DNA of 63,128 nt from an uncultured Nitrospira sp. (GTDB lineage: Bacteria > Nitrospirota > Nitrospiria > Nitrospirales > Nitrospiraceae). Under the pieces are notes generated by a model. That model saw only the letters and a program-made list of their open reading frames with translations. It ran no database searches and was not told the DNA's origin. The DNA lies in contig CABVRX010000021.1 of NCBI GenBank assembly GCA_902500825.1, positions 1 through 63,128 of the forward strand. Reading direction: 5' to 3'. The first letter of the stretch is position 1. Every line of letters starts with the position of its first letter. Made by a program: the position numbers and the translations under genes. Below, piece by piece: positions 12,367 through 59,005 of the stretch.

Positions 12367-12376
12367 CGCGGAATGC

Positions 12377-12545
12377 GCGGCAGCTCAAAATGGCTGTGAA
12401 CGAGGCCGTAGGCAAGCAAAAACCGGAAGCATGGTAGTTTCCACCCTCCCGCCCCGAGCTGCCAAGACAGCTCTCGCCTCGTGCGGGGTACGGTGAGGAT
12501 TTCTTGCGAGGCGAGCACAAAGTTGACGCCCATGTTCAGCTGCCG
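12377..12545. repeat. Palindromic intergenic repeat, family A copy 1
   Basis: An imperfect palindrome filling the gap between the AIM24-like gene (stop 12546-12548) and the M48 gene. Left arm 12377-12400 (CGGCAGCT then CAAAATGG) pairs with right arm 12522-12545: read in reverse complement the latter is CGGCAGCT then GAACATGG, about 19 of 24 matching. The centre holds a second stem, GAGCTGCC...GACAGCTC (12455-12473), and the core GGGGTACGGTGAGG (12484-12497). It shares arms and core with copies at 43160-43331 and 57901-58024. Confidence 0.8.
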
Positions 12546-13229
12546 TTACTCGCTCACCGGAATGAATTGCCTCACCCATGCTCCGAAGCCGCCTGGATTC
12601 CGGCTCTGAATGAACACAAGACCTGGTCCGCGAAAGCGGCAGACAAAACCTTCGCCCGATGTGAAGCTGGCCACCCATCCAGAAGTGGCTTTCTCGATGT
12701 TATAGGTGGTGGTGGTGGACCAAGCCACCAGATGGCTATTGTCCACGATATATTCCTGACCCGGTTTCAACTCGATTTTGTGAACGGCTCCGAAGCTGTT
12801 CAGGAGGAGCATCCCCTTCCCACTCATTTTGAGGATGAAGAATCCCTCCCCGCCCAGCAATCCACGGCTCATACTCTGCATCTGGCTATCGATCGTCACA
12901 CCATCAGCACCGGCCAGGAATCCATCCTTCTGCACCATATACTCGTTGATGCCATCGAGATCAAGAACAACGATCTCGCCCGGCACGGTCGGCGCGAGCA
13001 ATACCTCGCCGGCACCTCGGCTGGCGCGCAATGTCTGGAAGAAAAACTTCTCTCCCGTCAGAAACTTTCTCGACAGCGCCCCCAGAAAACCTCCCTCCAT
13101 TTTGCTCTCAATGTCGATGGTCGGCGAGCACGCCACCATCGCGCCTGACTCGGCCTTGATGTGTTCTCCATCTGCCAACTCAACGCGCACCATCGGAAAC
13201 GCACCGGGATACAGAATTTCACTTTTCAT
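12546..13229 (-). CDS. AIM24/TIGR00266 family protein
   Basis: A 227-residue single-domain beta-sandwich protein of the AIM24 (YhgD/TIGR00266) family. Diagnostic stretches are ADGEHIKAESGAMVACS near the N-terminus, the repeated glycine-rich GGFLGALSRKFLTGEKFFF, and the C-terminal NPGGFGAWVRQFIP. The family is widespread in bacteria and in yeast mitochondria; its role is unclear (a membrane-organisation factor in yeast). No signal peptide or metal motif is seen. Start ATG 13229 is preceded by AGGAGAGGCGG. The stop codon directly abuts palindromic repeat copy 1. A 146-base gap separates it from the amidohydrolase stop, and that gap has no recognisable gene. Confidence 0.9.
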   Translation of the reverse strand: MKSEILYPGAFPMVRVELADGEHIKAESGAMVACSPTIDIESKMEGGFLGALSRKFLTGEKFFFQTLRASRGAGEVLLAPTVPGEIVVLDLDGINEYMVQKDGFLAGADGVTIDSQMQSMSRGLLGGEGFFILKMSGKGMLLLNSFGAVHKIELKPGQEYIVDNSHLVAWSTTTTYNIEKATSGWVASFTSGEGFVCRFRGPGLVFIQSRNPGGFGAWVRQFIPVSE

Positions 13230-21761: not shown

Positions 21762-21884
21762 GCTTTATAATTGCTCCTCAAGTCGAGACTACTCGCTCAC
21801 GCTCTGAATTCGATCGGGAGCAGGATAAAGGAGCAACTCAGTGTTCTAGATGATAGACTCTCCAGCGACTGGTGAACGACTTAC

Positions 21885-21989
21885 CTAAGGAAGGTCTGAA
21901 TAGTTCCCGATTTCTATCAGTCAGCGCGCAAAACGCGTGAATCTGATTGATTCGTGCCCAGAACTTCGAATTAATCAGACCTTCCCTAG
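21885..21989. repeat. MITE-like inverted repeat, 105 bp
   Basis: The ends are 19-bp inverted repeats: CTAAGGAAGGTCTGAATAG at 21885-21903 pairs with TTAATCAGACCTTCCCTAG at 21971-21989, 16 of 19 matching and 11 contiguous. Inside is a smaller palindrome, GAATC-TGATT-GATTC (about 21936-21950). It encodes nothing. It could be a small non-autonomous element or a long hairpin in RNA. Confidence 0.6.
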
Positions 21990-22011
21990 ATTATTCGTTT
22001 TCCCTCTTCAC

Positions 22012-43137: not shown

Positions 43138-43159
43138 AGGTCCTCAGTAGTCTTTCTAA

Positions 43160-43331
43160 AGGATGATCAAAAAGGTCGTCCGGCAAGGCCGCAGGCGAAG
43201 CCAACACCACAGGTGTACCCACTTTTCATTCGCCCACCCTGAGCCTGCCAAGACAGGCTCTGCTCCCATGTGGGGTACATTGAGGATGTTGGCGAGCCGA
43301 GAACGAAGCTGGCGGCCTTTTTCATCACCCT
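43160..43331. repeat. Palindromic intergenic repeat, family A copy 2 (inside kdp)
   Basis: It fills the kdpB-kdpC gap. Left arm AGGATGATC plus AAAAAGG (43160-43175) pairs with the right arm, whose reverse complement is AGGGTGATG plus AAAAAGG (ending 43331). The stem continues as CG-C-GC on both sides. The centre has GAGCCTGCC-AAGA-CAGGCTC (43241-43260) and the core GGGGTACATTGAGG. The right end touches the first base of the kdpB stop triplet. Its internal 50 bases are very similar to copy 1. Confidence 0.82.
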
Positions 43332-45454
43332 CATACTAGATGCAGCGCGACGAGAATCATGTCGATGACCTTGATGCCGACAAACGGCACGATAACACCG
43401 CCCAACCCAAAGATCAGCAGGTGACGCCGCAGCAAGAGACCGGCACCGATCGGTTGATACTTGATTCCTCGTAAGGCAAGCGGAATGAGCGCGACGATGA
43501 TCAGCGCGTTGAAGATGACCGCTGACAGGACTGCGCTCTGGGGAGTCGCCAACCCCATCACGTTCAATGCGTCGAGCACCGGATAGGTCGTGGCAAAGGC
43601 CGCTGGAATGATCGCGAAGTACTTAGCCACATCGTTGGAGATGCTGAAGGTGGTCAACGCACCGCGTGTCATCAGCAACTGTTTGCCGATTTCTACGATT
43701 TCAATGAGCTTGGTGGGATTGGAATCCAAATCGACCAGATTCCCAGCCTCCTTGGCTGCTTGCGTTCCCGTATTCATGGCGACCGCCACATCAGCTTGAG
43801 CCAGCGCCGGGGCATCGTTCGTGCCATCGCCCGTCATGGCCACGAGTCGGCCTTCGGCCTGCATATCGCGGATCAATTTCAGTTTGGTCTCCGGTGTGGC
43901 CTGCGCAAGAAAATCATCCACCCCGGCTTCCGCCGCCACGGCCGCGGCTGTTTGTGGGTTGTCACCGGTGATCATGACTGTTTTGATGCCCATGCGCCGC
44001 AGCTCACCGAACCGATCTTTGATCCCGCCCTTGACGATATCTTTGAGCGCGATCACCCCGAGCACTTTTGCATTCTCTGCCACGACGAGAGGAGTCCCGC
44101 CTTGCTTCGCGATTGTCTCCACAAGAGCTTTCACGAATTGTGAGAAGTGTCCCCCTTTCGACGTGACATACGCTTCAATGGCATCGGCCGACCCCTTACG
44201 GATCTGCCGTCCGTCCAGATCGACTCCGCTCATGCGGGTTTGTGCCGTAAAGGGAATGAATTTGGCGCCTAGCTCATGGATGTCTCGCGCGCGCAATCCA
44301 TACTTCTCTTTCGCCAGAACGACGATGCTGCGGCCTTCCGGCGTCTCGTCAGCCAACGACGAAAGTTGGGCTGCATCGGCCAGGGCCTGGGCCTCTACTC
44401 CTTCTGCGGGAGTGAAGGTGGTCGCCTGACGGTTGCCCAGCGTAATCGTCCCGGTCTTATCCAGCAGCAGCACGTCCACATCGCCGGCGGCTTCGACCGC
44501 TTTCCCAGACATGGCAATCACATTCGCTTGCACCATCCGGTCCATGCCGGCAATCCCGATGGCCGAGAGGAGAGCCCCGATGGTCGTCGGAATCAGACAG
44601 ACCAAGAGTGCCACGAGCACCGTGACAGTGACCGGCATCCCCTGCCCCATGGCCTGCACGCTATAGAGCGAAAAGGGCAACAGAGTCACCGTTGCCAATA
44701 AGAAAATGATGGTCAGAGCTGCCAGCAGAATGGTCAGGGCGATTTCATTCGGTGTTTTCTGGCGCTTGGCTCCTTCCACCATCGCGATCATCCGGTCCAG
44801 GAAGCTTTCCCCAGGGCTCGCCGTGACACGAACGATGAGCCAGTCTGACAGAATCTTCGTGCCCCCTGTCACAGCACTGCGATCTCCTCCGCTTTCTCGT
44901 ATGACGGGCGCGCTCTCGCCGGTGATGGCGCTCTCATTCACGGACGCCACTCCCTCAACGATCTCGCCATCGGCGGGGATAAGATCTCCGGCTTCGACCA
45001 GGAATACATCCCCTTGCTTCAGTTGATTCGCCGACACCATGCTGAATGGATCGCCTCGCTGAAATTGACGGTTCCACACAGCAGAGTACTCGCTGCTGAG
45101 ATCGACCGTGCCAAGCTTCTTGGCCGTGAGTTCCCGTCGCGCCTTCTTGAGCCAATCGGCCTGCGCTTTGCCCCGACCCTCCGCCATCGCTTCGGCAAAG
45201 TTGGCAAACAGCACCGTGAACCAGAGCCACACCGTGATGAAAAGAATAAACTGGGTAGGAGCCTCGCCGACCCCCACCAGCGCTTGCAACAATAAAATGG
45301 TGGTGACGACACAACCGACCCACACTACGAACATCACCGGATTCTTGACCTGGTGACGCGGGTTTAACTTGCGAAAGGAATCGACTATTGCCTGGCGCAC
45401 GATCGTCGGCTCGAATAAGGACCGGCTCTTCTCCGCTTGAGTCTGTTTCGTCAT
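43331..45454 (-). CDS. kdpB: KdpB, potassium-transporting P-type ATPase
   Basis: A 707-residue P-type ATPase. Motifs: TGES in the actuator (ITGESAPV), phosphorylation site DKTGTIT, nucleotide-binding KGSAD, hinge [11 protein letters not shown]. The length equals or slightly exceeds the E. coli enzyme (682). It provides ATP hydrolysis for K+ uptake through KdpA. GAAGG before ATG 45454 lies just outside the edge of the repeat at 45467-45672, so that element supplies the entire kdpA-kdpB spacer but not the ribosome binding site. Confidence 0.96.
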
Positions 45455-57788: not shown

Positions 57789-57815
57789 CGACATCCTTTG
57801 GAACCCGGACGTTCT

Positions 57816-57852
57816 GTATCTTGCAAGATACGAATGGTATCAGTTTAGATAC
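57816..57852. promoter_or_regulatory. Tandem palindromes GTATC-N6-GATAC
   Basis: Two boxes: GTATCTTGCAAGATAC (57816-57831, a perfect 16-bp palindrome) and GTATCAGTTTAGATAC (57837-57852). They start exactly 21 bases apart, two helical turns, as do paired operator sites. They lie in a convergent gap behind hemL, where no promoter is expected, so RNA processing, replication-related or repeat-derived roles are also possible. Confidence 0.5.
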
Positions 57853-57900
57853 AGGGACCATGGATGTTTTTTGCTCCCGCTTCGCGGATATGTTGCATTC

Positions 57901-58024
57901 GCAGGCGGATCAAAACGGTTGTCCAGCGAGGCCGCAACGAACGAGAGGCTGAGGCGTACTTCCCAGTACGTTGAGGCCTTGAGAGACGTGAGAACAAAGC
58001 TGGCGATCGTTTTCATCTGCCTGC
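57901..58024. repeat. Palindromic intergenic repeat, family A copy 3
   Basis: Left arm GCAGGCGGATCAAAACGG (57901-57918) pairs with the right arm (reverse complement GCAGGCAGATGAAAACGA, ending 58024), and the stem continues with TTGTCCAGC against TCGCCAGC. The centre is the core GAGGCGTACTTCCCAGTACG followed by TTGAGGCC. It is shorter than copies 1 and 2. The right end shares its last base with the stop triplet of the leftward 76-residue gene. Confidence 0.82.
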
Positions 58025-58254
58025 TATTCGTCGTCCTCGTCTTCTGCCTCCATCGCCTCCTGCCGCTTCTGTTCTTCCATCGCGTTGTGAAGCAGCATGC
58101 GGATAAACATGGAATAGAGCGACCCTTTTTCCAACGTTCCGCCTGGCGGAATGGCGATTTTCCCCTCTTTAATCATGCGATCCATCCAGGCCTTTTGATC
58201 GGGGGCGATCAAGACTGGGATTTCAATCAGCCCCACACGTCCCATCATATCCAT
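58024..58254 (-). CDS. Small acidic-tailed hypothetical protein
   Basis: A 76-residue cytoplasmic protein: MDMMGRVGLIEIPVLIAPDQ, then an amphipathic region and a strongly acidic tail (EAEDEDDE). GGAGG stands nine bases before ATG 58254, fixing the start; the open frame to 58602 is antisense to the thermonuclease. No domain is recognised. The acidic tail and short helix suggest a binding partner of a basic protein or nucleic-acid mimic, a guess only. Its stop is contacted by palindromic repeat copy 3. Confidence 0.65.
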   Translation of the reverse strand: MDMMGRVGLIEIPVLIAPDQKAWMDRMIKEGKIAIPPGGTLEKGSLYSMFIRMLLHNAMEEQKRQEAMEAEDEDDE

Positions 58255-58396
58255 AACCGTTAACCTCCATTTACGTAATCGATGTCCGAGACCTCTGAGA
58301 AACGACAACGACGCTTCACTCAAAACAAACCGGGAGCCATTCCAGCATGCCGTTTTGCACATTGTCAATCGATCGAATCTGGCACGACACCTGCGT

Positions 58397-59005
58397 ATGC
58401 GACATGCCATGAGCTTGCGCCTAAGATCCATTACAGCTACAGCTTGGTTACTCATCGGCTGGATGCTTGTCGCGTCACCACCCGATGCCTCGGCAGAGTC
58501 TCTGCAGAAATCCGATCTCGGCTCCACCCTCAACCAGCAATGTGATCTCTGCTGGTATCCGTCGCCGAATGACCAAGACTCGGATCGCCTCCCGACATAC
58601 AAGCAACCTCGGCACCGACGTCCGCCGGACAGTCGACCACAGCGCTATCCCAAAGGACGTTACAAACTGGGGCCCACGCACAAGCAGTCGCGACTCTCCA
58701 CGCTTCGAACCCGTTCGAGGCACGAGATGAAGGTGCTGAGCACGTTCCAAGTGCGCGTGGTCGATGGCGATACAATTCGTCTTGGAGGTGAACGGATCAG
58801 ACTCCGTGGGATCGACACACCCGAGTTGAGTGAGCCACAAGGTCCGTCAGCCAAGCAACGGCTGGAAGAGCTCTTGCGCAGCGGCTCGATCCGCATCGTG
58901 CCCCACGGCCGGGATGTCTACAATCGACTCCTGGCCGATGTGTTTGTGAACGAACAGGACGTAGCGGAGATTCTTCGAAGTGAAGGATTTTCGAAAGCAG
59001 GATAG
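58397..59005 (+). CDS. Secreted thermonuclease-family (SNase) protein
   Basis: About 202 residues: a signal peptide (TAWLLIGWMLVASPPDASA), a ~80-residue Arg/Pro-rich spacer with a Cys pair (CDLCWYP), then an SNase/TNase OB-fold domain. VVDGDTIRLGGERIRLRGID holds the calcium-site Asp and catalytic Arg, TPELSEPQG the catalytic Glu, and RDVYNRLLADVFV the second Arg. The calcium-dependent nuclease fold looks complete but lacks the usual C-terminal helix extension. Starts at 58397 or 58409 (ATG) are both possible; none has a clear ribosome binding site. A secreted nuclease close to a secreted RNase is notable. Confidence 0.82.
   Translation: MRHAMSLRLRSITATAWLLIGWMLVASPPDASAESLQKSDLGSTLNQQCDLCWYPSPNDQDSDRLPTYKQPRHRRPPDSRPQRYPKGRYKLGPTHKQSRLSTLRTRSRHEMKVLSTFQVRVVDGDTIRLGGERIRLRGIDTPELSEPQGPSAKQRLEELLRSGSIRIVPHGRDVYNRLLADVFVNEQDVAEILRSEGFSKAG

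Follow-up and report, generated by a model that had tools for sequence, protein, structure and literature searches.

The window analyzed here, a stretch of 63,128 nucleotides corresponding to contig C21 of the genome of a Nitrospira relative (G000, 3.79 Mb, 50 contigs), carries three palindromes at 12377-12545, 43160-43331 and 57901-58024, as given in a preliminary description of this DNA. Each right end adjoins, as was also noted there, the stop codon of a gene reading leftward (TAA at 12546-12548, TGA at 43331-43333 and TAG at 58024-58026, respectively). All three palindromes are matched by a single covariance model of the sort proposed in that description, R1, which was built from the alignment and the consensus fold of 46 full sibling copies. 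Copy 1 is a long-form palindromic core of 172 bp (12376..12547, + strand, E 3e-7) with the outer arms CGGCAGCT/AGCTGCCG, and at its right end lies the target-site remnant TTAC (12546..12549), which is YTAR-like and contains the TAA stop of gene 12546-13229 (-). Copy 2, another long-form core (176 bp, 43158..43333, + strand, E 1e-17), overlaps with its right edge the native TGA stop of gene 43331-45454 (-). Copy 3 has a short-form core (124 bp, 57901..58024, + strand, E 2e-27) and is followed by the target-site remnant CTAT (58024..58027), containing the TAG stop of gene 58024-58602 (-).

The greater length of copies 1 and 2 is due to a second small hairpin repeat in the loop, GAGCTGCCAAGACAGCTC at 12456..12473 and GAGCCTGCCAAGACAGGCTC at 43241..43260, respectively (both on the + strand). 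In this second repeat, which was also observed at loci L016, L019, L241 and L249, CACCCNCCC-ACCC precedes a hairpin whose loop is CCAAGA. It is placed in the loop of the long-form copies or elsewhere within the core, and its hairpin arms change together (GAGCTG/CAGCTC, GGCGCG/CGCGCC). The copy-1 site is kept in 24 fetched species loci, in which the second repeat is present or absent and the short and long forms alternate; the TTAC remnant reads CTAT, CTAC or TTAT in the orthologues. An inverted repeat of 32 nt, the arms of which are 61 nt apart and 81% complementary, was also observed at 21875-21999 in the window.

A sequence search with copy 3 retrieved about 20 relatives in the same genome, where R1 identified 62 distinct copies, the three window copies included. 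The repeat was present in 55 of the 59 genomes covered by a genus-level search, and at least one R1 match was found in 188 of the 197 genomes searched in the order Nitrospirales. A strict-pattern scan of named organisms gave 12 contigs only, all of them belonging to Nitrospira, Nitrospiraceae or Nitrospirae. No match with Rfam was obtained at the gathering score within the window, and no description of this repeat in Nitrospira was found in the literature. About 11 copies occurring at separate places in the genome are 93-96% identical, which indicates that part of the family was dispersed recently.

The core palindrome in its short form is 125 bp long. The claim that the paired bases change together, previously made on three copies, was borne out by the test applied here: changes on both sides were found in 27 of 40 pairs, and the covariation score of the 46 copies was 0.264, versus 0.140 after shuffling (0 of 500) and 0.04-0.06 with slid partners. 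In this alignment, 94% of the cells are paired on the fixed consensus structure. The C-C mismatch reported for the three copies is retained throughout the family (columns 11/121 of alignment A1). The outer arms, which had been taken to be unrelated between copies, turned out to have diverged from a single arm of the family, GCAGGATG, which is common to most copies, and they form the region that differs most between copies. Two tandem G-A mismatches (CGA/TGAG), at columns 44-45/86-87 and 52-53/77-78 of A1, are strongly conserved on the + strand; such mismatches are also a feature of structured RNAs. The fold of copy 3 was much better than that of shuffled sequences, with z-scores of -6.9 on the + strand and -4.0 on the - strand and energies of -64.5 versus -50.3 kcal/mol, and z was about -3 for copy 1 and for the - strand of copy 2.

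Complete units and IS5-type insertion sequences

In several closely similar copies, the similarity extends leftward beyond the core. On this side, a terminal repeat that faces outward, CAGGCTGCGGAAAAACT, is found at about 75 bp from the core (the distances peak at 73-77 bp). The right-end terminal sequence of the full units is CAGG(A/C)TGYTGAAAAAG. The four bases outside CAGGCTGCGGAAAAACT are often the same as the four following the right end (CTAA/CTAA, CTAG/CTAG, TTAG/TTAG, TCAG/TCAG): exact 4-bp duplications were found in 18 of the 45 copies carrying the left repeat at three substitutions or fewer, a set to which the three window copies do not belong, versus 4.1 expected (0 of 10,000 permutations). 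The left repeat and the flanking duplications indicate that the 125-bp palindrome forms the right-hand portion of a longer unit, about 200 bp in all, organized as YTAR - CAGGCTGCGGAAAAACT - a variable stretch of about 75 bp - 125-bp palindromic core - YTAR, and carrying no transposase gene. In 86 of 131 copies, including the three window copies, no left terminal repeat was detected within three substitutions, and the IS5 origin of these copies therefore rests on kinship.

At the orthologous site of copy 3, genome G001 shows ACT-CTAG-MITE-CTAG-AGG directly after the stop of the left gene and genome G032 shows TTAG-MITE-TTAG, versus a single site in other species (a single CTAG in relatives). 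Copy 3 is also present in G028, G016 and G024, and is missing from many other genomes. A conserved motif, GTATCTTGCAAGATAC ... GTATCAGTTTAGATACAG, was observed nearby between two convergent genes (at about 57810-57855 in the window and in the orthologues L055-L084); it occurs in most of about 30 species, with or without the MITE. As far as the orthologous loci could be read, the core of copy 2 is confined to G000 and G012 within the genus. This site is either empty or occupied by the core in the species other than G010, where a different element with CAGGCTGCGGAAAAGC-type ends lies about 14 bp past the stop and encloses a CCCGCGAAAGCGGGAG repeat (L258); this element may be a MITE as well, belonging to the same IS group.

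Full insertion sequences were located by searching for DUF772 transposases across the genus. In sister species, autonomous elements of 1,251-1,357 bp were identified, the ends of which are the same as those of the MITE or very similar, and which are flanked by YTAR-type duplications (CTAG/CTAG in L328, L343 and L346, CTAA/CTAA in L330, CTAT/CTAT in L325). L326, also flanked by CTAG/CTAG, spans 2,498 bp and perhaps consists of two elements side by side. The ends are CAGGCTGCGGAAAAAC or close variants in L328, L330, L343 and L326. The two transposases tested match NCBIfam NF033581 (transpos_IS5_4) with 251 and 271 bits, the cut-off being 140, as well as Pfam PF05598 (DUF772) and PF01609 (DDE_Tnp_1). 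YTAR is the published target motif of IS5 (PMC10359306), and the IS5 duplication is 4 bp long (PMC11677980). An assignment to IS630/Tc1 elements, which duplicate TA, had been prompted by the TA of the stop codon and was dropped in view of the 4-bp YTAR duplications. No full insertion sequence with the ends of the MITE was found in the genome carrying the window.

Contact with stop codons

The observation made in the preliminary description is confirmed, and stands well above chance. Counted independently of gene calls, a stop triplet occupies the right edge in 109 of 210 copies, versus 8 of 210 for the left edge. With the gene calls, made with a hexamer-based caller trained on the window, the right edge overlaps the stop of the leftward gene by exactly one base in 47 of 131 copies, and the same one-base overlap occurs in 26 of another 79 copies, taken from two sister genomes that each consist of a single contig. 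The stops at the right edge are 30 TAG, 13 TAA and 4 TGA, versus 55 TGA, 33 TAA and 28 TAG in the background, and the preceding base is mostly C or T. The dominance of TAG and the preceding C or T show that the motif at the right end is YTAR followed by CAGGATG. Since YTAR contains TAA or TAG, the contact with stop codons is largely the outcome of the target (TAR) and not of the recognition of gene ends as such. Relatives lacking the element still have the stop codon at the copy-2 and copy-3 sites, the TGA of copy 2 being found at the same position, so that in these cases the stop is native and was not supplied by the element.

Stops are used more than the availability of YTAR predicts: 50 of the 79 right ends with an exact YTAR lie at called stops, versus 51 of the 355 available YTAR sites, these being the sites outside gene bodies (intergenic and stop-codon sites) as derived from strand-wise counts. 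Moreover, it is the right end of the core that faces the stop, by about 5-7:1 (73 exact cases, or 102 within three bases, versus 14 left-end cases). This over-use and this orientation bias imply either that features other than YTAR also guide insertion or that most of the other insertions have been lost. Recent copies are already biased, 6 of 11 being located exactly at a stop, which points to an insertion preference or to very fast loss.

Evolution of the fold and strand signal

The copy-1 site is old, and it is the one site at which compensatory evolution in place was shown: the outer arm has changed there from GGATGC/GCATCC to GGCAGC/GCTGCC or GGCTGC/GCAGCC, and mismatched intermediates are found in L238, L239 and L250. 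Wobble pairs were analyzed in 210 copies split by the direction of the left gene. In the outer arms, the ratio of G-T to A-C on the strand transcribed from a left gene that reads into the core (+) was 30:11, versus 22:32 when the left gene reads the opposite way (-) (p 0.0015 by permutation and 0.002 by Fisher's test). The trend was suggested by one set of copies, with 22:9 and 13:22, and a second set, with 8:2 and 9:10 (p 0.13 alone), repeated its direction and size. The fact that outer-arm wobbles occur on the transcribed strand above chance makes RNA-level selection, perhaps for termination, likely, if unproven.

In the inner stem, G-T was favored on the + strand in every gene context, in agreement with the better fold of this strand. 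The idea that this excess reflects transcription coming from the left gene was considered and rejected, the ratio being the same whichever way that gene reads (p was 0.88 for the first set, and Fisher's test on the pooled sets gave p 0.11); the preference is not explained by the transcription of either neighbor, and it departs from the pattern expected if the core terminated the transcript of the abutting gene.

A GC stem (GGNC) lies beside a T5 tract with at least four T in 183 of 210 copies on the + strand and 182 of 210 on the - strand, so that at least four of the five bases of the A5/T5 tract are preserved on either side in about 87% of the copies. A tract on both sides is what a two-way terminator would need; the classical intrinsic terminator, however, has a short loop, whereas that of the core is far longer. 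A simple terminator scan (loops 3-8) detected no terminator-like site in copy 3, because the loop greatly exceeds the lengths allowed. That the core may function as a terminator or a 3' protector is a reasonable reading of these sequence features.

Origin of the repeat and comparison with known systems

It is highly probable (about 0.82) that the palindromes are old copies of a MITE, non-autonomous and belonging to the IS5 family, which is targeted to YTAR and many copies of which seem to have been kept at stop codons as folded ends of transcripts. The terminal inverted repeats, the matching duplications, the matching insertion sequences, the recent copies and the sites that are empty in relatives all support this reading. 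The MITE is new in its sequence and range, and its kind is already known. An IS5-type transposase would mobilize it in trans into YTAR tetranucleotides, and stop codons would be harmless targets, frequent ones because TAA and TAG are part of YTAR. After insertion, the left part would be lost and the core kept at the stop codon; the arms would then evolve by compensation in place, the fold being selected as RNA, and it might act as a two-way transcription terminator or as a 3'-end protector of the abutting gene. Several observations weigh against this reading: a DDE transposase should insert the element either way round, whereas the right end faces the stop about 5-7 times more often; no full insertion sequence with matching ends was found in the genome under study; most copies show no left repeat; the inner stem favors wobbles on the + strand in every gene context; and the terminator scan gave no site in copy 3. 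The two proposals made in the preliminary description both hold in part: that of a mobile palindrome for the mobility, given the 4-bp YTAR duplication and the IS5-type ends, and that of a folded structure selected at gene 3' ends in view of the signs that selection has acted on the fold where it stands.

The further proposal that the mobile palindrome builds its outer arm from the target would account for the outer arms being the most variable part, but it is contradicted by the compensation with mismatched intermediates at the copy-1 orthologous site, and most copies have the GCAGGATG arm in common. The covarying arms might also have arisen without any RNA function, by template-switch correction of the palindrome during DNA replication, which is a known mechanism for quasi-palindromes. 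The outer-arm changes in the copy-1 orthologues, which often hit neighboring bases, are in keeping with this process; the family-wide persistence of the C-C and tandem G-A (columns 52-53/77-78) mismatches, the outer-arm wobbles on the transcribed strand and the A/T tract that holds its orientation while its neighbors swap make it unlikely.

The other possible origins concern the class of element. The present unit is bounded by two terminal repeats and by a 4-bp duplication, which IS200/REP-type elements are not known to make, and it is about 200 bp and not 20-40 bp long. A REP/BIME-like repeat that depends for its movement on a tyrosine (HUH Y1) transposase associated with REPs, with a foot tetranucleotide giving the stop, is thus quite improbable, even though Y1_Tnp genes occur in 64 of 79 genomes of the same genus and GTAG REPs often supply the TAG stop to flanking ORFs (PMC3733652). 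No association with these genes was detected, since only 2 core matches were found in 41 loci around them, which is about the number expected from copy density. RAYT-like Y1_Tnp genes, with products of about 234 and 290 aa, are present in most genomes of the genus (e.g., G000:C11:102641-102988 and G000:C1:259146-259466). Integron attC sites or cassette-array remnants would likewise have a folded strand and a position after stop codons, and in G022 seven co-oriented cores (L312, C1:1285745-1296231) resemble a cassette array, several of them abutting the stops of successive same-strand genes; this run has two genes for Y1 transposases within a few kb. However, no RYYYAAC/GTTRRRY boxes were seen by eye in the flanks and ends, and the full units have IS5-type repeats and YTAR duplications at both ends, so that there is very little to recommend this origin.

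If the MITE reading holds, an abundant and apparently undescribed repeat of Nitrospirales is accounted for by a known mobile-element mechanism, and YTAR targeting shows why repeats of this type touch stop codons. A broader proposal, which we put forward tentatively and regard as rather doubtful, is that an order-wide IS5-type MITE has provided genes with their 3' ends: it would hit the stop via YTAR and shed its left part, and the core would become a conserved, strand-adapted RNA terminator or 3' protector under compensatory selection. Should the core be selected as RNA, hundreds of natural insertions would trace, base pair by base pair, the passage from a mobile repeat to a gene-end structure.

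SPRITE, RUP and BOX of pneumococcus and ERIC of enterobacteria, which are likened here to the present repeat on the basis of the literature, are also small palindromic MITE-like repeats; as described, they differ from it in sequence and host. SPRITE contains a sequence resembling a terminator, and elements of this type are found nested within each other (PMC10969869). The GTAG REPs and BIMEs are likewise palindromic, intergenic and multicopy, with a foot that supplies or touches a TAR stop and with G-T pairs in the stem (PMC3733652), whereas the Nitrospirales element measures about 125-200 bp, shows no link with Y1 genes and has 4-bp duplications. It shares with the IS5-family insertion sequences and the MITEs derived from them the 4-bp YTAR duplication and terminal inverted repeats like those of insertion sequences encoding DUF772/DDE transposases (NF033581). 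It differs from these MITEs in that most of the Nitrospirales copies show one end only and keep a 125-bp core evolving by compensation, and in that it is order-wide, old and strongly placed at stop codons.
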